Shown in pieces: positions 41 to 37,453 of a stretch of 37,470 bases of DNA. Under the pieces are notes generated by a model, which was given only the letters and a program-made list of their open reading frames with translations, was not told the origin of the DNA and ran no database searches. Numbering within the stretch: position 1 is the first letter of the stretch; every line of letters begins with the position of its first letter. The stretch comes from a virus. The translations under genes and the position numbers were made by a program. The DNA lies in IMG/VR virus record IMGVR_UViG_3300033571_008007, positions 1 to 37,470 of that record; one strand, 5' to 3'.

Positions 41-262
41 ATGAAAAAAATAATATTAGGAATAATAATAATATTAGGTATAGGTTGTATTGTTTGGTTT
101 GCTTCTGGCTGGGAATGCACCAGTTACAGAACCGAAACTCAAATTGAAATGCCTATGGGTATAGTGGTCGGTGGTTCAAAATACGGAGGCGGTATTTCCG
201 TTCCAATAGGTAATGCTAGGCAGGTGGAAAAACAGGTGTGTAATGAGTGGATTAAAAACTAA
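41..262 (+). CDS. Small membrane-anchored protein, unknown function
   Basis: A 73-aa protein with a very hydrophobic N-terminus (residues 4-21, mostly Ile/Leu/Gly) that is either a single membrane anchor or an uncleaved signal. The exported part has two cysteines (C26, C67) and a Gly-rich stretch at about 43-51. Cys16, at the end of the hydrophobic segment, is not in a good lipobox. The purine-rich GAAGAAGAG just before the ATG could act as a weak ribosome site. It is probably transcribed with the Dam-type gene across the contig ends and is followed by a methyltransferase. No family was recognised. Confidence 0.55.
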   Translation: MKKIILGIIIILGIGCIVWFASGWECTSYRTETQIEMPMGIVVGGSKYGGGISVPIGNARQVEKQVCNEWIKN

Positions 263-275
263 TAACCCCAATAAA

Positions 276-1250
276 ATGTCACAAGAATTAAAAAAAGAGT
301 GGGAATACAATAAAGTTTATTTAGGAGGTTGCCTAGAAGTGATGAAAGAGATCCCTGATAAGAGTATTGATATGATTTTATGCGACCCACCTTACGGGAA
401 TATTAAAAAAGCTCCAACTGGGTGGAATATTGAAAAACTACAATGGGATAATATAATAAATCCACAGGAATACTTTAATTTGGCTAATAAAATTTTAAGA
501 AAAAATGGAATAATGATTTTATTTTCACAAGAACCATATACAACAAACTTAATAAATTCACAAACAAAAGATATACAATTTTGCTATAGAGCAATATGGG
601 AAAAAGATAATTTTGCAAATGCTTTAGGTGTAAATAAAAATATGGTTGGATTTTATGAAGATATATTGGTGTTTAAAAAACATTTTGAGAGTGAAAATAA
701 TGACGATAACCCTTGCAAGGAATATGCGGTTAGAGTATTTAACTTTATAAATAAACCAATGAAAGATTTAATTTCCAAATACGGGAATACTAATTTAACT
801 CATTTTTACAGTTCGGGAAAACAATTTAGACTTTGCACAGAAGAAACTTACAATAAATTGATTCAAGACTTTAGTATAAATAATATGCAAGGGTTTAAAA
901 CATTTTTGGAATTAAAAGAAATGAATAGGCAATATAAAAACTCATTTCTTTCCACTTTTAATTTGTGGGAAGGTAAAAAATATAAAAGTAATATATTAAA
1001 ATATTCAAAAGATTATGAAGGACTCCACCCAACTCAAAAACCAGTATTACTATTTGAGGATTTAATAAAAACATTTTCAAACGAAGGCGACCTAGTATTA
1101 GATAACTGTGCAGGCTCTGGTACAACAGGAGTAGCTTGTAAAAACACAAACCGAAACTTCATCCTCATAGAAAAAGAACAGGAATACATAGACATTATTA
1201 ACAAAAGACTCTCCTCCCCCAGTCGCACGGAGGATTTAACAGAGAAATAA
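276..1250 (+). CDS. Beta-class DNA methyltransferase (N6-adenine/N4-cytosine type)
   Basis: A 324-aa AdoMet-dependent DNA amino-methyltransferase. Catalytic motif IV DPPY lies at residues 37-40, ahead of AdoMet-binding motif I (DNCAGSGTT, about 276-284). That order is the beta class (PF01555 type), with the target-recognition region between them. A HPTQKP motif just before motif I is typical. The reading frame is open from 213, but the ATG at 276 is preferred: it begins the recognisable protein and follows the A-rich AATAAAATG context used throughout this phage. The N-terminal residues ELKKEW recur in the next gene. No restriction endonuclease is adjacent, so masking of phage DNA from host restriction is the likely role. 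Confidence 0.85.
   Translation: MSQELKKEWEYNKVYLGGCLEVMKEIPDKSIDMILCDPPYGNIKKAPTGWNIEKLQWDNIINPQEYFNLANKILRKNGIMILFSQEPYTTNLINSQTKDIQFCYRAIWEKDNFANALGVNKNMVGFYEDILVFKKHFESENNDDNPCKEYAVRVFNFINKPMKDLISKYGNTNLTHFYSSGKQFRLCTEETYNKLIQDFSINNMQGFKTFLELKEMNRQYKNSFLSTFNLWEGKKYKSNILKYSKDYEGLHPTQKPVLLFEDLIKTFSNEGDLVLDNCAGSGTTGVACKNTNRNFILIEKEQEYIDIINKRLSSPSRTEDLTEK
1212..1234 (+). other. Hairpin at methyltransferase 3' end
   Basis: TCCTCC (1212-1217) pairs with GGAGGA (1229-1234) around an 11-nt loop starting CCCAGTC. It overlaps the end of the methyltransferase coding sequence. The only strong SD-like sequence near the start at 1253 is thus inside the 3' arm, so the structure could limit downstream translation. 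Sequence-level inference only. Confidence 0.4.
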
Positions 1251-24713: not shown

Positions 24714-25044
24714 TCAAATATTTATCAATCGCTGATTCTATCTTCTCTCTATCTTCCACAACGATTGGGGCTACTGCCTGTCCGTGCTTACGGTCAAGGA
24801 TGTCTTTATAAAAACGATAGTCGCCAGCACGGGCTAACTTAATAGCGTTTGATAGCATCTCAACTTCAAGCGTGTCCGGCTCTTTACCATTCAATTTAGC
24901 CAAGTGAATTAAGCCTTCTCTGTATAGAGTAGCGTAATTCTTCTGACCCACTGGGCGACCGTTAGGGTTAGCCGTCTGTCCGGGCTTACAAGGTATAAGA
25001 TTTGCTATTCGCTTATCTCTGTTTTTGTCTTTGTTTTTTGCCAT
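24682..25044 (-). CDS. Terminase small subunit-like protein (DUF5681 motif)
   Basis: A 120-aa basic N-terminal part containing KPGQTANPNGRPVGQKN (about 20-36), the hallmark of DUF5681 proteins often located before terL, followed by helices. Overlapping genes on both sides (40 nt with the ParB-methyltransferase, 32 nt with terL) imply tight coupling. A DNA-recognition role in packaging is likely but not proven. Confidence 0.55.
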   Translation of the reverse strand: MAKNKDKNRDKRIANLIPCKPGQTANPNGRPVGQKNYATLYREGLIHLAKLNGKEPDTLEVEMLSNAIKLARAGDYRFYKDILDRKHGQAVAPIVVEDREKIESAIDKYLNDNTGNNKEK

Positions 25045-26180
25045 ATAATTTCTTTACCATTTAACTTAATATTCTCATTACCTGTGTAGTCAACATAGCG
25101 TTGGACAATCACGTCTACGTATTTTGGGTCTAGTTCCATTCCGTAACATATACGACCTGTTTTTTCAGAGGCTATGAGAGTAGAGCCAGAGCCGAGGAAG
25201 TCATCAATTACTATTCCGCCTGGGTTAGAGCTAATTTTAAGTTCATTAACTATCAATTCAACAGGTTTCATTGTTGGATGTGGTGTTGAATTTTCTCTAC
25301 CAAACTCTAGACTCTTTGAATATGAAACTCCTTGAACTGCATTGTTCCAAATAGCATTTTTTCTTATAGTTAAGAGATATTCTACATCTGGTCTATGTTG
25401 TTCTCCTAAAGGAAGAGCATTTGGTTTCTTCCAAAAAAGGATATTAAAAGCATATTTACATTCTCTAGCCCAATTAAGATAATCTGGAACTAAATCTTTA
25501 TTACAAAATATATAAGCATTCATTCCTCTTTCAAAGTATAAAGGAAGTGTATTTAACCATTCTGCTGGTTCAAAACTTATAATATCTTTTATACTCTCAC
25601 CTATTTTAGCGGCACTCTTTCCTACCCATTGATTAGAACCACCCTCTGCCTCCATCCTATAAGGCGGGTCAGTAAACACCATATCTGCCTTCTTCCCATC
25701 CATAAGACTTGAAACTGCCTCTATTTGCGTGGAATCCCCACATAATACTTTGTGACGACCTAACTCATACAAATCCCCTAATTTAGAGCGACTAGGCACA
25801 TTCTCTGGTATTACATCATCGGCTTCATCAGCCTCTATAAGTAAATCAGCATCAAATCCGGTTAGCCCCACTAGATCATCATCCTCCAATGATTTCAGTT
25901 CATCAATAACGAGCGCCATATCCCATTCACTTTCGTTCAACTTATTATCAGCTAGACGATAAGCATCAGCTTTCTTTTTACTTATATCCAATACTTTTAC
26001 CTCTGGTTCTATACCAAGTAACTTACACGCTTCCCATCTTCCGTGTCCTACTATTATCACACCTTGTTTATCTACAACGATAGGTTGATTCATACCAAAC
26101 TCTTTAATAGAGTTAGCTACTTGTTGTATCTGTTTCTTTGAATGCTTTTTAGCATTTTTTGGATAAGGTTTTATTTCCAT
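25005..26180 (-). CDS. ParB-like domain fused to N6/N4 DNA methyltransferase
   Basis: A 391-aa protein. Residues 1-95 are a ParB/Srx-like nuclease domain with the VIIVGHGRWEAC signature at 41-52. A linker follows, then a methyltransferase with DPPY at 171-174 and AdoMet motif DFLGSGSTL at about 339-347 (beta class order). Such fusions are common in phages beside terminase genes. It is the second gene of the leftward arm; the ATG at 26180 lies immediately after a tRNA-like leader. It may mark DNA against restriction or couple methylation to packaging. Confidence 0.8.
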   Translation of the reverse strand: MEIKPYPKNAKKHSKKQIQQVANSIKEFGMNQPIVVDKQGVIIVGHGRWEACKLLGIEPEVKVLDISKKKADAYRLADNKLNESEWDMALVIDELKSLEDDDLVGLTGFDADLLIEADEADDVIPENVPSRSKLGDLYELGRHKVLCGDSTQIEAVSSLMDGKKADMVFTDPPYRMEAEGGSNQWVGKSAAKIGESIKDIISFEPAEWLNTLPLYFERGMNAYIFCNKDLVPDYLNWARECKYAFNILFWKKPNALPLGEQHRPDVEYLLTIRKNAIWNNAVQGVSYSKSLEFGRENSTPHPTMKPVELIVNELKISSNPGGIVIDDFLGSGSTLIASEKTGRICYGMELDPKYVDVIVQRYVDYTGNENIKLNGKEIIWQKTKTKTEISE

Positions 26181-29187: not shown

Positions 29188-30086
29188 ATTTTATAGATAA
29201 AATAGAAGGTAAATATAGGGGACCTGTAATAAATATAATTCTAGATGGTATAAGAAGTTTTGATGGTAAATGTAATTCGTCTGAAGTAATTGAGTGGGTA
29301 CGAGAAGATTTAAAAAGGCGTAAAAAATATGGACTACCTAATTACCTCAAAATAGTTAAACAAAACTTAGATGAAGAAGAAATGCATATATTTATTAATG
29401 AATATATTGCCTATCAAAATCTTCCTTACGAACAAAGACAACGAGTAAAACAAATTAAAATAAATTCCAAACAAATGCAAAAAAAACTAATTAAAGACAT
29501 TTTTAATAATCAACGACCTCTATCATGGTCTGCTATTTCGTCATGGAATTATTCTAAAGAGGACTGGGCAAAAAAATATATAGATGGTGAAGTTCCAAAA
29601 TCTAGTAAGGAAATGGACTGGGGTAAAAAAATTGGTAAACTCTTAGAGACTGATCCTACCTATTTACCACAAGTCCCACGACATTCTAAAATGGAACATA
29701 AGTTCAGTGTCAATTTATCTGGTATCCCCCTTGTAGGTTATGCGGATTCTTTTTGTGATAAGAGCCATAATAAGTTACTCGAATTTAAGACTGGTAAAAA
29801 AGCCTGGGATCAAAAACGTACAGATGAACATGGTCAGATCACAATGTACTGTTTAATGAATTATATTACTAATAAAATCAAACCAGAGGATATGGATATT
29901 GCTCTTGTCTGGCTCCCTACACAAGATAACGGAGACTTCTCCATCTCCTTTGTCGAACCGATTGAAGACCACATTCAAATCTTTAAAACTAAACGCACCA
30001 TGCAAGACATCCTTCTCTTCGCCTCTGAAATAAAAAAGATTTATAAACAAATGGAGGAATATGTAAAAAATTATGAAAAAAATTAA
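29181..30086 (+). CDS. PD-(D/E)XK nuclease, RecB/Cas4-like
   Basis: A 301-aa protein. Catalytic-type residues are in order: GYAD (D189), EFK (E201, K203) and Q219 in HGQITMY. SWSAISSW at about 115-122 is a typical beginning of PF12705-type exonucleases. The N-terminal ~100 residues are a separate helical part. It overlaps the primase by 7 nt and the next gene by 14 nt. Probably a recombination/replication exonuclease working with the downstream ssDNA-binding-like protein. Confidence 0.75.
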   Translation: MVNFIDKIEGKYRGPVINIILDGIRSFDGKCNSSEVIEWVREDLKRRKKYGLPNYLKIVKQNLDEEEMHIFINEYIAYQNLPYEQRQRVKQIKINSKQMQKKLIKDIFNNQRPLSWSAISSWNYSKEDWAKKYIDGEVPKSSKEMDWGKKIGKLLETDPTYLPQVPRHSKMEHKFSVNLSGIPLVGYADSFCDKSHNKLLEFKTGKKAWDQKRTDEHGQITMYCLMNYITNKIKPEDMDIALVWLPTQDNGDFSISFVEPIEDHIQIFKTKRTMQDILLFASEIKKIYKQMEEYVKNYEKN

Positions 30087-31125
30087 AGTATTATCATTAT
30101 TTGACGGTATATCAGTGGCCCAGCAAGCCCTAAAAGAATTAGGGTATGATGTGGAGTATTACGCTTCCGAGATAGATAAGTATGCTAGTCAGATTACACA
30201 GAAGAATCATCCGAAGACTATTCAAGTTGGTAGCGTAGTTGGTTTGCAACCATTATTCAAGCCAGATCTCCTCATCGGTGGCTCACCTTGCCAAGACCTA
30301 TCAATCGCCAAGAAGAATCGTCAAGGCTTAGATGGTGCAAGGTCGGGTCTATTCTGGGAGTATGTTCGTATCTTGAAAGAAGTAAAGCCGAAATACTTCG
30401 TGCTTGAAAATGTAAACTCTATGCCAAAGGAAGCAAAGGCAATTATCACCGAAGCTCTTGGTGTTGAACCAATAATGATAAATGCCTCCCTTGTTTCAGC
30501 GCAGAACCGAAAGAGATTGTTTTGGACAAATATACCGAATGTTACCTTGCCAAAAGACAGGGGGATATTGTTGAAAGATATTTTGGAGGAGAATGTTGAT
30601 GAGAAATATAAGGTAAATATTTCTCCGAAGTATGGACTAAAAGGATTGTGCGAAGCAAACGATAAAGCTAAAGCGGTTACTGCTTCTTGTTATAAAGGTT
30701 ACGGTAATGATGGAGTTTCAATTATTCGTGTAGGGAAAATCGGCAAAGGTGGTCAAGGTGATAGAATCTACTCTCCAGAAGGCAAGTCGGTCGGTCTATC
30801 AGCTCTCGGTGGTGGTCGTGGGGCAAAGACGGGGTTGTATTGTATTGGAAACATCTATGCTAAAAAAGGACAAGCTGGAAATGTTTATGATGTGAATGGA
30901 AAATCTGCCACTATTAGTTGTGCTGGTCGCGGTGGTGCTGATAACGCTGGTCTTTATCAAGCTGATTCCATAATCCGCAAACTTACCCCAATAGAATGTG
31001 AACGCCTGCAATCTCTCCCAGATAATTACACTGAAGGAATAAGCAACAGTCAGAGATATAAGTGTTTAGGCAATGCGTTTAATAAGGAGGTGGTCAAACA
31101 TATTTTGAAAAAAATGGCTAACTAG
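30073..31125 (+). CDS. C5-cytosine DNA methyltransferase
   Basis: A 350-aa protein with all main motifs: motif I (LSLFDGISVAQQAL, 7-20), catalytic PCQ (72-74), ENV (112-114) and motif VIII QNRKR (144-148), then a variable Gly-rich recognition region with repeated GKS-type segments (about 215-300). C-terminal motifs IX/X are present (RKLTPIECERLQSLPD and KCLGNAFNKEVV). Complete and probably active. A GGAGG lies upstream within the preceding frame. Likely anti-restriction. Confidence 0.9.
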   Translation: MKKIKVLSLFDGISVAQQALKELGYDVEYYASEIDKYASQITQKNHPKTIQVGSVVGLQPLFKPDLLIGGSPCQDLSIAKKNRQGLDGARSGLFWEYVRILKEVKPKYFVLENVNSMPKEAKAIITEALGVEPIMINASLVSAQNRKRLFWTNIPNVTLPKDRGILLKDILEENVDEKYKVNISPKYGLKGLCEANDKAKAVTASCYKGYGNDGVSIIRVGKIGKGGQGDRIYSPEGKSVGLSALGGGRGAKTGLYCIGNIYAKKGQAGNVYDVNGKSATISCAGRGGADNAGLYQADSIIRKLTPIECERLQSLPDNYTEGISNSQRYKCLGNAFNKEVVKHILKKMAN

Positions 31126-32916: not shown

Positions 32917-33033
32917 TGGGCAGAACAGGCTGGCATTTTAAGAGGTAGTGATATGGTTGCTTTCGGTCTAAGGAGCCGTTTCACAGCCACCACCTAAGTA
33001 AGTTTAATAGCCTCAGCCGGCCTATCCTGCCCA
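32917..33033 (+). ncRNA. Structured intergenic RNA upstream of SF2 helicase
   Basis: TGGGCAG (32917-32923) pairs with CTGCCCA (33027-33033). After a 3x3 internal loop AGGCTGGC (32927-32934) pairs with GCCGGCCT (33016-33023, one G-U). Inner paired segments include AGGTAGTG against CACCACCT and GTTG against CAGC. It ends nine bases before the helicase ATG. There is no good ORF in it. It could be a regulatory leader or a small RNA. Confidence 0.5.
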
Positions 33034-33042
33034 TTATTAGTT

Positions 33043-34164
33043 ATGGAATTAAAACCTTTACCACATCAACAAAGAATCATTGACTTAAACCCTAAGAAGA
33101 TACTTTTGGACTGGTCACCAAGAGTTGGTAAGACATTACCAGCGTGCTATTGGATCGATAATCCACAACAGGGTAACAATACCTTTATTATTTGTAAGAA
33201 GAGTAATAAGAAAGAATGGCAAAGTATGGGTACTAGAGCTACTGTGTTAACTAAAGAAGAATTTAAAAAACACGCTTCAAAGATAGTTAATCCTACTGCT
33301 ATTGTAATTGACGAAATCCATAATTTTGGTGCCTCCTTATTCGTTAAAGGTCGTTCTGAACTAGCTACAACTCTCTATAACCTAGTTAAAGCCTATCCTA
33401 ACTGCCATTTGATGGGGTTATCGGGTTCGATGGTTAGAAACTCGCCTTGGTCATTCCACAGTCTTCTGTGTTATATAGGAGTGTATATTGACTGGAAGCA
33501 ATGGAGAACAGAGTTTTTTGAACTTACTAAAACTCATTTTCAGCCCTGGCCGATCTGGATGCCTAAGAAAAACTGGCGTGAAGGGATATATAAACTACGC
33601 AAAAAATATTGTGATCAGGTATCATTAAGTGATGTAGTTGAGTATCTTCCACCGGTCAAGCCAACAGTGGTAAAGATTAAGTCAGATAAATATGTACCAC
33701 CAGTCGGAGAGATAGTTACCTGGACTAATGAACATCAGCACGAGCAGAGAAATAAATATAAGTGGTTAATAGAGTTAGAATATAAAAAGATTATTATAGT
33801 TTGCCGATACACTGAACAGATAAACGACTTAGCAAACAAACTTAAAGAATATAAAGATGTATTCATCCTTAACGGTCAGACAAAAGATCAAGGTAACACC
33901 ATTAAGAAAGCCCAAGAGTCTGAAGAGTGTTACTTCCTAGTTAATTCAAAGATGGGTGAATCGTGGGATGGTTGGATGTTTGACTGTATGGTCTTTGCCT
34001 CAATGGATGACGCCTTTGTCGCAAATTTCCAGATGCATGAGAGACAGAGAAACATTAAGAATTTAAAAGACATTGAGATCTTCTATCTGATCGGAGGACA
34101 TTGGGATCAGAAGGTATATAATAGCTTTTTATTAGGTCAAGATTTTAACCCACATGCAAAATAA
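33043..34164 (+). CDS. SF2 helicase
   Basis: A 373-aa compact helicase: Walker A SPRVGKT (25-31), DEIH box (90-93), motif III LSGS (126-129) and a motif VI-like QMHERQR near 342. It is shorter than cellular SNF2-type enzymes. It probably remodels DNA for phage replication or recombination. The stop overlaps the next start (TAATG). Confidence 0.8.
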   Translation: MELKPLPHQQRIIDLNPKKILLDWSPRVGKTLPACYWIDNPQQGNNTFIICKKSNKKEWQSMGTRATVLTKEEFKKHASKIVNPTAIVIDEIHNFGASLFVKGRSELATTLYNLVKAYPNCHLMGLSGSMVRNSPWSFHSLLCYIGVYIDWKQWRTEFFELTKTHFQPWPIWMPKKNWREGIYKLRKKYCDQVSLSDVVEYLPPVKPTVVKIKSDKYVPPVGEIVTWTNEHQHEQRNKYKWLIELEYKKIIIVCRYTEQINDLANKLKEYKDVFILNGQTKDQGNTIKKAQESEECYFLVNSKMGESWDGWMFDCMVFASMDDAFVANFQMHERQRNIKNLKDIEIFYLIGGHWDQKVYNSFLLGQDFNPHAK

Positions 34165-34556
34165 TGCTCCCATCACTTCCACAACAAAATAAACAGAAGG
34201 AATCTAAGTCTGGTATTAAGTTTAGAACTTGGCTTAAGGCTAATCCACGTTATACCTCGTCAATTGAGATGAAGGACTCTCGATCAAAGACTTCTATTAG
34301 ACTTTCAGAGATTACTGATGAACAGATAAACTACGCCTTAGCTATTCAAGAGAGTAAGTCCGGGGTCTTGATTCGCACAACCGGTGTAGCTGGACTACCA
34401 GACTATGTCTATCTACGCAATGAACCAGCTTACTTCTGTATTAAATATCCTAAAGGATTTTGTCTTATAAATGTAAATCAGATTGTTAACGAGAAGAAGA
34501 AAGCTAAGTCGTTATCTTATTCTAGGGCTAAAGATATAGCTATAATTACCTTTTGA
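34164..34556 (+). CDS. Putative PD-(D/E)XK-like resolvase
   Basis: A 130-aa basic protein. Candidate catalytic pieces are IEMKD near 36-40 and GLPDYVYL followed by AYFCIKYPKGF (about 77-100), a pattern seen in Holliday-junction-resolvase-like phage proteins in which the usual D...ExK is altered. It follows the helicase. The call is tentative; it could be a small DNA-binding protein. Confidence 0.4.
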   Translation: MLPSLPQQNKQKESKSGIKFRTWLKANPRYTSSIEMKDSRSKTSIRLSEITDEQINYALAIQESKSGVLIRTTGVAGLPDYVYLRNEPAYFCIKYPKGFCLINVNQIVNEKKKAKSLSYSRAKDIAIITF

Positions 34557-34557
34557 G

Positions 34558-34605
34558 TTATCCACATCCCCCCTGTTTGCAATCATTTATAAGTAAGTAT
34601 ATAAT
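34558..34605 (+). promoter_or_regulatory. Early promoter 3 with upstream DnaA box
   Basis: TTATCCACA (34558-34566), 10 bp, TTGCAA (34577-34582), 17 bp, TATAAT (34600-34605). Start near 34612, next to the ATG at 34613. It has the same layout as the promoters at 26864 and 31136. Confidence 0.8.
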
Positions 34606-34612
34606 TATGAGT

Positions 34613-34774
34613 ATGAAAGAATTAAAATGTAGCAGATGTGGAGATTTATTCGTTCAAGGTTATGCAGGTAACGATGAAGTTTGTGATCAGTGTCTTGAGG
34701 AGATGGCGGTCGACATCCCCGATGAGCCAGATATGAGTGGAGCGGATAAACCGGGAGAGGAGGGTAATAGATAA
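34613..34774 (+). CDS. Small zinc-ribbon-like protein
   Basis: A 53-aa protein with C6-x2-C9 and C24-x2-C27, a typical zinc-ribbon pair, then an acidic tail. The frame is open upstream from a TTG (34553), but the promoter starts transcription at 34612, so the ATG at 34613 (or 34607) is the likely start. Its N-terminus (MKELK) resembles that of the gene at 1253. Function unknown. Confidence 0.55.
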   Translation: MKELKCSRCGDLFVQGYAGNDEVCDQCLEEMAVDIPDEPDMSGADKPGEEGNR

Positions 34775-34778
34775 ACAT

Positions 34779-34880
34779 ATGAACATCTACACAGGAATAA
34801 TCGTAGGTTTTTTATTAGGAAGTTTAATTGTAACAATATTTTATGATAATAACACTACTATTCTTAATAAACTTAGTTAG
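34779..34880 (+). CDS. 33-aa single-TM peptide
   Basis: A peptide starting MNIYTGIIVGFLLG, with one membrane span and a polar C-terminus. It begins five bases after the previous stop and overlaps the CAP-domain gene start. It could be a membrane partner or a leader. Small size limits confidence. Confidence 0.4.
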   Translation: MNIYTGIIVGFLLGSLIVTIFYDNNTTILNKLS

Positions 34881-35178
34881 AGACGTTCCGCTTCAGGAGT
34901 CTGCTGTCCTTAATCAGAGAGCAGAAGTTAGAGCAGAGCAGTTATGTCACAACAAACAATGGAGTCATATAGGTTGGATAGATTCGTTTAAAGGTCTTGA
35001 TTATGACTATGCAGGTGAAAACCTATCAAAGGACTTTGCTAACGATTTAGACGCCTTTATAGCCCTTATGGGGTCACCTAGACACAAAGCTAACATCTTA
35101 AACAAGAACTATAGTGAGATAGGTATAGGATATTCAAAAGAGTGTAATTTAAAGGTTGAATTATTTAGAGGTCTTTAA
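34843..35178 (+). CDS. CAP/SCP-domain secreted protein
   Basis: A 111-aa protein. The hydrophobic N-terminus (MIITLLFLIN) is a probable signal or anchor. The rest is a short CAP (CRISP/PR-1/SCP) domain: H42 in KQWSH, E59 in YAGENLS and H81 in MGSPRHKANILN, the usual cavity residues. It is shorter than typical CAP domains (about 130-150). A host-surface or exclusion role is conceivable, but no phage function is established from sequence. Confidence 0.65.
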   Translation: MIITLLFLINLVRDVPLQESAVLNQRAEVRAEQLCHNKQWSHIGWIDSFKGLDYDYAGENLSKDFANDLDAFIALMGSPRHKANILNKNYSEIGIGYSKECNLKVELFRGL

Positions 35179-35184
35179 CAACAA

Positions 35185-35388
35185 GATTAAGGATAGATGT
35201 CGTGGGTGGTCATCAGAAGCCCGTTGATATAGTATTGACCCGATATGCAAGACCACATCTAGCCCCGCTACCGAAAGGTATAAACGCGACTGATGAGAGT
35301 TTAAAACTTGAAACAGAAATGTATCGCGGAGTGTCCCAAGCGGGGGAATAACTGGACACCAGTCGGGTCACGGCATCTGTCCTTAATC
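35185..35388 (+). ncRNA. 204-nt pseudoknotted RNA domain containing a hammerhead ribozyme
   Basis: The ends, 35185-35204 and 35369-35388, pair as a 20-bp helix with two G-U pairs, which supports plus-strand sense. Inside: GTGGTC/GACCAC (35206-35211 with 35251-35256), with TGACCCGA (35236-35243) pairing out of that loop to 35363-35370 (the last two bases compete with the closing helix). CCCCGCT (35263-35269) pairs with AGCGGGG (35339-35345), itself in the loop of GTGTCC/GGACAC (35331-35336 with 35354-35359). A TACC-GAAA-GGTA hairpin and the hammerhead lie in the middle. No ORF of note. The region 35179-35581 otherwise holds only the tRNA-like element. Confidence 0.75.
35285..35328 (+). ncRNA. 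Hammerhead ribozyme, type I topology
   Basis: Core CTGATGA (35290-35296) and GAA (35310-35312) with A15.1/U16.1 at 35313/35322 and cleavage base A35323 (GTA triplet). Stem I is CGCGA/TCGCG (35285-35289 with 35324-35328), stem II GAGTT-TAA-AACTT, stem III ACA-GAAA-TGT. All invariant bases are present; the 10.1-11.1 pair is G-U instead of the preferred G-C. The chain enters and leaves via stem I. Predicted cut between 35323 and 35324. Confidence 0.85.
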
Positions 35389-35412
35389 AAATCAAAGAGG
35401 GTGTGAGATGGG

Positions 35413-35539
35413 GGAAGATTGGCAGAGTGGCTTATTGCAAGTTAACTGAAAAGAATCCCATACAAAAAGAGGGAACTGTAGCTGGACTGAGTTTGAAAGT
35501 AACTGGCTACCTTAGGTTCGAATCCTAAATCCTTCCCCA
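35413..35539 (+). tRNA. tRNA-Ser-like element with 48-nt anticodon-loop insertion
   Basis: Standard tRNA geometry is visible: U8, G9, D-stem GCAG/TTGC with A14, GG (18-19) and A21; T-arm TTAGG-TTCGAAT-CCTAA; CCA encoded at 35537-35539. The anticodon stem AGTTA/TAACT (35440-35444, 35500-35504) encloses ACTGAAA (anticodon UGA, Ser) plus about 48 extra nt. Oddities: C at position 33, an A-C mismatch at 4-69 in the acceptor, C73, and a GTAGC/GCTAC pairing (35478-35482, 35506-35510) that would make a pseudoknot. An alternative acceptor GGGGAAG/CTTCCCC and an outer GTGAGA/TCTCAC helix also form. Confidence 0.45.
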
Positions 35540-35581
35540 CCTCCCACTCTCACAAGTCTAGCAAGATAATAAAAAAATAAG

Positions 35582-35740
35582 ATGGAAAAAGAACAATTAA
35601 ATAAATGGGTATATAGATTACAATATTATATTAAAAATGTAGAAAACTCACAAGGGCAACAGAAAGAAATTGCTATACAGTCCTTGTTAGGTTATTTATC
35701 AAGTTTGGAGATTATAATAACGCCCCCAGTGCAAGAATAA
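35582..35740 (+). CDS. 52-aa helical protein
   Basis: A short protein starting MEKEQLNKW, helical with many Gln and a C-terminal ITPPVQE. The ATG lies after an A/T-rich leader without Shine-Dalgarno. It is the first gene after the RNA region; its 3' end contains one copy of the C-tract/CAGT motif. Function unknown. Confidence 0.45.
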   Translation: MEKEQLNKWVYRLQYYIKNVENSQGQQKEIAIQSLLGYLSSLEIIITPPVQE

Positions 35741-35744
35741 TAAA

Positions 35745-35918
35745 ATGGAAAAGAAAAAAATGAAAAATATACACAGATGTCCATTATGCTACAGAACGAC
35801 CCCTAATAATTTTGGCGAGTGCTTATGTAGTTATGATTTGCTTATGTTTAGTGGCGATTATGAAAAAATATGCCAAAAATTAGCTGGAATTATTAAAGGT
35901 TTTTGGAGATTAAAATAA
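35745..35918 (+). CDS. Small four-cysteine zinc-finger-like protein
   Basis: A 57-aa protein with CPLC (12-15) followed by CLC (26-28) and a late Cys, a compact metal-binding pattern. The A-rich AATAATAAAATG start is identical to the one at 36133. Four bases separate it from the preceding stop. Function unknown. Confidence 0.5.
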   Translation: MEKKKMKNIHRCPLCYRTTPNNFGECLCSYDLLMFSGDYEKICQKLAGIIKGFWRLK

Positions 35919-35919
35919 T

Positions 35920-36093
35920 ATGAGAGAAGAAATAAAATTAAAAGATGGTGAGAAATGGGCTTATGAACCAAATTGGTATCTAGCGGTCGGTGATGATTTT
36001 GAAAAAGGTGCTAGGTGTGCAGATTGCGATAAATGGATTGAAAGGGAAAATAGAGATAGTTTACAAGTTCACGAAATGCAACATTGGGACTAA
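35920..36093 (+). CDS. C2H2-type zinc-finger mini-protein
   Basis: A 57-aa protein with CADC (33-36) and HEMQH (51-55), a C2H2-like arrangement, preceded by an acidic/aromatic N-terminus (KWAYEPNWYLAV). The start is one base after the previous stop. Could bind nucleic acid or a host protein; unknown. Confidence 0.5.
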   Translation: MREEIKLKDGEKWAYEPNWYLAVGDDFEKGARCADCDKWIERENRDSLQVHEMQHWD

Positions 36094-36120
36094 TCCCCCC
36101 ACTCAGCTTTAATAGAATAA
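36091..36120 (+). repeat. 30-bp exact repeat, copy 1
   Basis: A 30-base sequence (stop TAA, then C6, ACTCAGC and AATAGAATAA) is identical to 36670-36699. Both copies begin at a stop codon and lead to the next start, so they look like a transplanted gene junction. Confidence 0.9.
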
Positions 36121-36132
36121 AAGAATAATAAA

Positions 36133-36672
36133 ATGGAAAAGAAAATAAACAAATTAAAAATAGGAGACGTTTATAATTTTAATTGGAATACTGAAGAATA
36201 CAATAAACAGTCTTGGGGTGGCTCACTAAGCCATTGTTTTGAGGGATTACTTGTTGTTATGGAATACCCTGAATGGAATGAAGAAAAAGACAAATATGAA
36301 AATGAATTGAAATTGGTTGATACGTTTTGGGGTGTAAATAGGACATCAGATAACAAGTCATTCACCTTAGAAGAAGCACAGAAACGAGGCGTTTTAACTT
36401 TTTATTGTAACCTAAATGATATTGAGGGTATAGAAAAATATAATTTAGACAAGTATGATGATAAAGATTTGTTCGCACTCCACGACCAGCATTCTTGTGT
36501 TGAGAGTTGCATTCATTGGTATAAAAAGAAGGGTGCTAAACAAAGTCCAGCAAAAAGAATTAGTGTAATTGATGAAGAAATAATAAAAGCCAAAAAAGAT
36601 ATTGAATATAATATCAGACAAATTGAAAATTTATCAGGTGAACGTAAAAAGTTAGAAATAAGTGGTTTTTAA
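36133..36672 (+). CDS. Conserved-looking phage protein of unknown function
   Basis: A 179-aa protein. An N-terminal beta-rich domain with SWGGSLSHCFEG and DTFWGVNR (about 25-80) is followed by a central Asp-rich part with a His/Cys cluster (HDQHSCVESCIHW, about 117-129) and a C-terminal coiled coil (about 143-175). The His/Cys cluster suggests metal binding. It is flanked by the two 30-bp repeats. Family not recognised. Confidence 0.55.
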   Translation: MEKKINKLKIGDVYNFNWNTEEYNKQSWGGSLSHCFEGLLVVMEYPEWNEEKDKYENELKLVDTFWGVNRTSDNKSFTLEEAQKRGVLTFYCNLNDIEGIEKYNLDKYDDKDLFALHDQHSCVESCIHWYKKKGAKQSPAKRISVIDEEIIKAKKDIEYNIRQIENLSGERKKLEISGF

Positions 36673-36699
36673 TCCCCCCACTCAGCTTTAATAGAATAA
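36670..36699 (+). repeat. 30-bp exact repeat, copy 2
   Basis: Identical to 36091-36120. It overlaps the stop of the upstream gene and ends 13 bases before the next ATG (36713). Confidence 0.9.
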
Positions 36700-36712
36700 T
36701 TAGATAAAGAAG

Positions 36713-37453
36713 ATGAAATATGTAGGTTCAAAAAATAGACACTCCAAAGAGATTTTACAGGCCATTACTACTGAATGTGGCGGTATGTCTGGTGTTGGTA
36801 AATATCAAAATTGGATTGAGCCGTTTGTTGGTGGTGCAAATATGATAGATAAAGTTTATGGGTTTATTAAATATGGTAGTGATGTAAATCCTTTCTTAAT
36901 ATCAATGTTTCAGGCCGTTCAAAAAGGTTGGAAACCCCCAGAAGATATAGACGAGGAAACATATAATTTATGTAAAGAAAACTCCAAGTTATGTTGTGGT
37001 GCTACATTAGAAGAAAAGGCACTAATTGGTTTTGTTGGTATTGGATGTTCTTATTCTGGCAAGTGGTTTGGTGGGTATGCTAGGGGAAATGCAAATAACG
37101 GACAACCAAGAAATTACTGCAAAGAAAGCAGGGATAATCTTTTGAAACAGACAAAACACATAAAAGATGTAAAATTTATTTGTTCCGACTACCAAGCTCT
37201 AACAATACCAATTACACCATCAATAATTTATTGCGACCCTCCGTATCAAGATACAACAAAATACCACGACTCAATACGACATAAAGAGTTCTGGAATTGG
37301 TGCAATAATTGGGTAGAACGTGGAAATAAAGTATTTGTTAGTGAATACAACGCCCCAGAAGGCTGGAGATGTATTTGGGAAAAGGTTGTCAATAGTTCGC
37401 TCACGAAAGAAACTGGAAGCAAAAAGGCGACTGAAAAGTTATTTACTAAGTAG
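36713..37453 (+). CDS. dam: Dam-type (D12 class) N6-adenine DNA methyltransferase
   Basis: A 246-aa protein. MKYVGSK at the N-terminus, EPFVGGANM (37-44, AdoMet motif) and catalytic DPPY (175-178) in alpha/D12 order. It is slightly short but motif-complete, with the recognition domain between the two. Stop TAG lies at 37451-37453, just before the terminal repeat. Target unknown (GATC is common in this class). Likely protects phage DNA from host restriction. Confidence 0.85.
   Translation: MKYVGSKNRHSKEILQAITTECGGMSGVGKYQNWIEPFVGGANMIDKVYGFIKYGSDVNPFLISMFQAVQKGWKPPEDIDEETYNLCKENSKLCCGATLEEKALIGFVGIGCSYSGKWFGGYARGNANNGQPRNYCKESRDNLLKQTKHIKDVKFICSDYQALTIPITPSIIYCDPPYQDTTKYHDSIRHKEFWNWCNNWVERGNKVFVSEYNAPEGWRCIWEKVVNSSLTKETGSKKATEKLFTK

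Follow-up and report, generated by a model that had tools for sequence, protein, structure and literature searches.

A small predicted double-pseudoknot RNA of bacterial viruses with a hammerhead ribozyme as optional insert

Our analysis revealed an RNA class that is carried by many unrelated bacterial viruses, usually with a hammerhead ribozyme and often between tRNA genes. Comparison of the sequences showed a core of ~95-110 nt that is predicted to fold via two crossing helix pairs (e with c and a with b), and, on the same grounds, it is this core and not the hammerhead or the closing helix that defines the class. The original prediction had described helix, pseudoknots and hammerhead as one fold. 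Of these only the double-pseudoknot core proved constant, and since homologues keep this core, the closing helix and the hammerhead are regarded here as dispensable surroundings.

The RNA was found in a virus record of 37,470 bases, analysed at its full length and here called the window, which encodes a primase-helicase and several DNA methyltransferases together with a match to a major head protein and a weak match to terminase. Four ORFs of the window (213-1250, 25005-26180, 30073-31125 and 36713-37453) matched DNA methyltransferase families. The structured RNA occupies positions 35185-35388 of the plus strand (204 nt), where it sits between ORFs of ≥60 aa and is overlapped by none of them. 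A promoter and terminator scan of 34800-35800 gave nothing on the plus strand. Features are listed below by window position, with percentages of paired cells and counts of pairs that change on both sides.

35185..35204, plus strand: 5′ strand of helix d, the closing helix; 20 consecutive pairs with 35369-35388
35202..35207, plus strand: GUGGGY opening the core; invariant columns in the form A alignment; overlaps the end of d and the start of e
35206..35211, plus strand: 5′ strand of helix e, pairing with 35251-35256; 100% of cells paired, two-sided change in 4/6 pairs
35237..35243, plus strand: 5′ strand of helix c, within the e loop, pairing with 35363-35369; first pseudoknot, with e
35237..35243/35363..35369, plus strand: helix c, both strands; 97.2% of cells paired, two-sided change in 7/7 pairs
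35251..35256, plus strand: 3′ strand of helix e, from the covariation alignment
35263..35268, plus strand: 5′ strand of helix b, pairing with 35340-35345; 99.6% of cells paired, two-sided change in 5/6 pairs
35285..35328, plus strand: type I hammerhead ribozyme between b and a; predicted cut 35323/35324; core motif complete in 50/63 members
35325..35331, plus strand: CGCGGAG, 3′ strand of hammerhead stem I; retained in most hammerhead-less members
35332..35336, plus strand: 5′ strand of helix a, pairing with 35354-35358; second pseudoknot, with b
35332..35336/35354..35358, plus strand: helix a, both strands; 98.0% of cells paired, two-sided change in 4/5 pairs
35340..35345, plus strand: 3′ strand of helix b, within the a loop, from the covariation alignment
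35345..35355, plus strand: conserved GGAAUAACUGG, a mostly unpaired joint between b and a, with its first G in b and its last GG in a
35354..35358, plus strand: 3′ strand of helix a, from the covariation alignment
35363..35369, plus strand: 3′ strand of helix c, from the covariation alignment
35369..35388, plus strand: 3′ strand of helix d; 35369 is contested between d and c
35413..35539, plus strand: tRNA-Phe(GAA)-like gene, a neighbour only; found with the ARAGORN intron option, missed by default ARAGORN and by Rfam

The 204-nt RNA has a minimum free energy of -75.2 kcal/mol (z = -5.67), which none of 200 shuffles equalled. Perfect helices of ≥20 pairs, counted with G-U allowed and a span of ≤250, occurred twice in the window (overlapping registers counted) and not at all in five mononucleotide shuffles. 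Two U-G pairs of the closing helix (35194/35379 and 35200/35373) would be A-C if read on the other strand. The claims of a structured RNA with a 20-bp closing helix, two pseudoknots and two G-U pairs that work on the plus strand only were thus confirmed. The proposed crossing pairings of 8 bp and 7 bp do cross and are conserved; they comprise 7 pairs for helix c in the family register (8 with a one-pair extension), 6 for e, 6 for b and 5 for a.

Evidence for the core comes from an alignment of 41 members with the gene order designated form A, which reads GUGG, e, AA, c, UGUGCA, e, AUCUG, b, insert, CGCGGAG, a, CCAG, b, GAAYAAC, a, CCAG, c, so that e crosses c and a crosses b. All six pairs of helix e were formed in 41/41 members, and overall 96.7% of the cells were paired, compared to 70.1% in shuffles and 34.7-40.2% in slid controls. 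Among the 34 pairs examined, which included those of the hammerhead stems, 25 showed changes on both sides, and in total 330 cells had two-sided change vs 84.1 in shuffles. The covariation score was 0.622, against 0.148 for shuffles and 0.04-0.11 for slid controls. In the patterns used to collect the members, some unpaired positions and parts of b were prescribed, and most of the variable bases of a, c and e were left free. The core helices are joined by strongly conserved unpaired stretches (GUGG, UGUGCA, AUCUG, CGCGGAG, GAAYAACU and CCAG), among which CGCGGAG is counted as core because it persists in most members without a hammerhead. Collecting homologues and checking their covariation had been proposed as a test, and the pairings were indeed kept: each crossing helix shows compensatory changes. 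Chance folding or an assembly artefact can be set aside with near certainty, as it is refuted by the covariation over 41 distinct sequences and by the presence of the RNA in cultured phages and Escherichia coli chromosomes, and nothing in its support was found.

The core matches no catalogued RNA family and is, by that measure, a new RNA class. Rfam at gathering score returned no family for the whole window, and a search of 34881-35740 at E values up to 10 gave three chance families only, with no tmRNA, RNase P, 6S, group I intron or phage pRNA among them. This agrees with the initial statement that the fold resembles none of tmRNA, RNase P, 6S and group I, since Rfam gave no such match over the window RNA. 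ARAGORN found no tmRNA in the window, no GOLLD or ROOL match was obtained in the window or in those loci of relatives that were scanned with Rfam, and Rfam 15 holds no family covering the core. At the RNA in relatives, only sub-threshold hammerhead matches were detected. No published description of the core was found in titles, abstracts and readable passages, and an unpublished, supplementary or subscription-only one is not excluded. The suggestion of a new RNA class with a hammerhead as one module is supported, as the crossing helices covary and the core was found both with and without the hammerhead.

A distant blastn search of window 33000-36700 against 50,697 phage records matched three phages, Pappous, Taid and Setonix, each time on the hammerhead and the RNA's 3′ half. 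Primase-helicase relatives of the window (L001-L004) showed no convincing RNA copy by blastn. A 17-base pattern from the phage match yielded 39 stretches in viral contigs, of which 24 places, L005-L007 among them, passed a stricter script, and two half-RNA patterns that did not require the hammerhead yielded 37 and 81 stretches; many of the 39 and the 81 were chance matches to a short pattern. Later pattern scans added 48 and 42 stretches in viral contigs and 16 in bacterial genomes; five of the latter (L127, L128, L129, L136 and L141) were judged members and the remainder, on sequence inspection, chance matches. A first parsing script counted 70 places, 51 of them distinct, and a second one, run after the further scans, 63 distinct members, a count that misses at least L144, L155, L156, L163 and L167, which were recognised by eye. 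A subfamily (L150/L169, L157-L162, L166, L167, L171 and L172) has an e loop without UGUGCAG, and its helix a mostly ends in CCUAG, not CCAG.

Cultured phages carrying the RNA are Pappous, Taid, Setonix, SDFMU_EhYP, Constance and Karkharias, and the RNA also occurs in E. coli chromosomes. A 301-base query containing the RNA in its second gene order, form B, matched 367 of 5,426 E. coli genomes; the matches listed mostly cover about three quarters of the query, and the full RNA was not confirmed in each. The same query matched 201 phage records, and among the 60 matches listed, which mostly cover its first ~90 bases (a tmRNA-like leader), four carry the RNA. Blastn against phages and plasmids gave no match for L111 and L066, whereas L119 matched Arthrobacter phages, L097 and L062 the same four enterobacterial phages, and L108 one Aquitalea plasmid.

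The hammerhead is situated between b and a. In the window it comprises CUGAUGA (35290-35296), GAAA (35310-35313) and stem I (35285-35289/35324-35328), has stems of 5, 6 and 3 pairs and is predicted to cut after A35323. A complete type I catalytic core (CUGANGA ... GAAA, with UH before the cut) was found in 50/63 members including the window, with UC, UA or UU as the cleavage dinucleotide. The hammerhead is missing in 12 members and broken in one, and is therefore regarded as an optional insert; in seven of these 13 (L072, L079, L111, L127, L143, L157 and L160) a gap of only 7-8 nt takes its place, and the fold of the hammerhead-less cores is kept. The 50 complete cores have three stems with stem I open, stem I having 1-5 and stem III 2-8 contiguous pairs. 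Counted from its closing pair, stem II scores zero in ~12 of the 50 (A-A or internal-loop variants), and because several carry A-A for the usual closing pair not all hammerheads need be fast. The hammerhead family RF00163 had no Rfam match at the window, and L048 (28.7) and L027 (24.7) remained below its gathering score of 34 bits. The sequence UAACG in the stem II loop, perhaps a docking motif, is common to L026, L034, L056, L062, L069, L095, L104, L113, L119 and L147. The core was not found in PaP3, Bcep176 and HF2, phages with reported hammerheads. On the core tree, in which 34 of 60 inner branches are unresolved, the presence of the hammerhead requires 11 changes or more, and we infer from this tree that the hammerhead has been repeatedly gained or lost. 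We discarded the idea that hammerhead loss goes along with loss of the closing helix, as L070, L058 and L143 have the helix without the hammerhead.

The sequence of stem I is nearly fixed, since its 3′ strand is the CGCGGAG of the core that is retained without the hammerhead. Stem I abuts CGCGGAG and helix a, which would suit a natural allosteric ribozyme: on binding a ligand or protein, the double pseudoknot would switch the hammerhead, with which the core is connected through stem I. The unpaired joints are conserved in a manner reminiscent of riboswitches and ribozymes, and hammerhead cores are either complete or mostly gone. Nonetheless, the persistence of the core in 13/63 members without an intact hammerhead rules this out as a general role, and no constant regulated gene lies downstream, so that we consider such a ribozyme rather improbable.

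The 63 members occur in two gene orders, form A (52 members), in which the e/c segment comes first and the RNA is usually closed by a helix, and form B (11 members), in which the a/b segment comes first, followed by a hairpin-capped closing helix and then the other segment, with strands unchanged. As the same helices form in both orders, the RNA is circularly permuted between phages. All form B members have a hammerhead (11/11, vs 39/52 in form A; Fisher p = 0.10), which is suggestive only. Locus L172 has a second RNA copy in tandem, directly downstream, around position 1377 on the minus strand. Two tmRNA-like genes, with Rfam tmRNA matches below threshold and a frame read as ANDDVVLMAA, were noted in phage IME11 (L049, 2849-3286) and in an E. 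coli prophage (L027). In L027 the hammerhead RNA fills the stem behind the tag, while the same stem of IME11 contains another insert. The RNA does not itself contain the tag reading frame and tRNA-like ends that would make it a tmRNA; the L027 copy is located downstream of the tmRNA-like tag frame, but L048 carries form B with its outer stem standalone. The permuted orders, the tandem copy in L172 and the varied insertion sites, including form B with outer stem alone or behind a tmRNA-like gene and the other insert in the IME11 stem, would be accounted for if the RNA were selfish or mobile and spread via a circular RNA or in the form of a cassette. We give this little credence, given that no transposase or reverse transcriptase was among the neighbour families listed and that the permuted form looks like few origins (at least four changes on a poorly resolved core tree).

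Members have the RNA either squeezed between tRNA genes or inside a long enclosing helix; the two settings rarely coincide. Using ARAGORN, a same-strand tRNA was detected within ~300 nt of 10 of 51 members, for most within 2-32 nt; the usual distance from the core was 2-13 nt for an upstream and 11-32 nt for a downstream tRNA. A significant enclosing helix was present in 34/41 members without a nearby tRNA vs 1/10 with one (Fisher p = 3e-5, not corrected for relatedness), the one being L143; seven of the 41 (L136, L082, L108, L060, L097, L145 and L033) have neither. The window RNA combines its closing helix with a tRNA-like neighbour 24 nt downstream that default ARAGORN does not see. This tRNA-Phe(GAA)-like gene has an A-C mismatch in the acceptor stem and a 48-nt anticodon-loop insert that is too short for a group I intron. 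By eye, the RNA was also located between two tRNA sequences in L079 and, tRNA-like ones, in Arthrobacter phage Constance.

Among the neighbour proteins (164 listed), 63 of the 81 with ≥170 aa were scanned against PHROGs and Pfam; no constant partner emerged from these 63, the commonest PHROG, a TerL family, being matched by three. Searches of the loci by tblastn detected RtcB in two and Ro60 in one, and RtcB was dismissed as a general partner because only two loci have it. In L026 the RtcB gene lies 16 nt downstream of the RNA. On the 150-kb viral contig L058 (1180-2400), Y-RNA-like repeats and tRNA-like pieces lie beside a Ro60/TROVE-like gene, with the core RNA at the end of the array. L051 (2410-7126), a short viral contig of unchecked origin, has a class A RNase P RNA (266 bits) within an array of ~30 tRNAs. 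A link to translation or RNA metabolism is hinted at, though only by the neighbourhood, which includes tRNAs, tmRNA, Y-RNA/Ro60, RtcB and RNase P RNA; proximity to translation genes may mean no more than that phages store their spare RNA genes there.

Several copies occupy the spaces between genes of structural or late operons, namely after a capsid gene, before scaffold and capsid genes, beside TerL and between Q and lysis genes. This location might point to a cis-acting processing or stability element, in which hammerhead and knotted core cut a polycistronic mRNA and leave a protected 5′-OH end on its downstream part, and mRNA processing by prophage hammerheads was proposed by Perreault et al., as far as the accessible part of that paper goes (PMC3088659). 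Such an element is hard to reconcile with the RNAs inside tRNA arrays, with both permuted orders and with the 13/63 members lacking an intact hammerhead, and in form A a cut would leave upstream and downstream RNA joined, because the enclosing helix holds both. We therefore regard it as unlikely, though worth keeping in view.

Permutation, tRNA wedging and a dispensable ribozyme are most simply accounted for by a discrete RNA with an optional hammerhead. The explanation we lean towards, with moderate confidence, is that these small non-coding phage RNAs form a new class, are excised as discrete molecules and act in trans in translation or RNA metabolism. Comparison establishes the core, the optional hammerhead and the permutation; transcription, excision, cleavage and action in trans are inferred without RNA-seq data. 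Where the RNA lies between tRNAs, it would be cut from longer transcripts by tRNA-processing enzymes, and elsewhere it might be freed by cleavage of the long enclosing helix by an enzyme of the RNase III type, a known cutter of such helices. The hammerhead would cut one nucleotide before CGCGGAG, which in form B would create the mature 5′ end and in form A would nick a molecule still held together by its helices. The matured RNA would then have a conserved host component as its target in trans, most likely one of translation or RNA metabolism, and this is the weakest step. More tentatively, the core might be a new functional fold (trans-acting, a sensor or a catalyst) in phages of several bacterial phyla, for which the hammerhead is a cut switch repeatedly gained or lost. 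Hammerhead-cut RNAs end in a 2′,3′-cyclic phosphate and a 5′-OH, which RtcB joins. As such ends can be joined and one member has RtcB encoded 16 nt downstream, some members might, on this more tentative reading, switch freely between the cut and the resealed state.

The closest systems by setting are GOLLD, ROOL and theta ribozymes, and by module the prophage hammerheads. GOLLD and ROOL are described, in the part of the source available, as elaborately folded phage and prophage RNAs of unknown function that are often near tRNA islands, and they are far larger than the RNA described here, with many GOLLD RNAs of >800 nt (PMC12286853). According to the available portion of the respective study, the HDV-like theta ribozymes of gut phages are self-cleaving, lie beside phage tRNAs and were proposed to process tRNA 3′ trailers (PMC10879173). 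They have another fold, and in our case the tRNAs appear to release the RNA and not the reverse, and hammerhead-less copies are located between tRNAs as well (L079, L127 and L051). In 50/63 members the insert shares with type I hammerheads (RF00163) the CUGANGA and GAAA motifs, the three stems and the UH cut site, but here it is plugged into a larger pseudoknotted RNA. Natural permutation is also known, on the portion of the source at hand, from permuted hammerheads (type SGC and others), where a hammerhead-containing RNA has pseudoknots (PMC10085705). In those it is the hammerhead itself that is permuted, whereas here an ordinary type I hammerhead resides in a circularly permuted RNA.

The finding adds a widespread structured RNA, which occurs naturally in two circularly permuted forms, to the few phage RNAs that have no assigned function. 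It is readily testable, since the cultured phages Pappous, Taid, Setonix, SDFMU_EhYP and Constance and E. coli lysogens carry the RNA, and as a natural example of RNA modularity it is useful for RNA structural biology and design. The role of prophage hammerheads was left open in the 2011 survey, as far as its accessible text goes (PMC3088659), and these hammerheads now gain a concrete setting as an optional insert in a conserved RNA.
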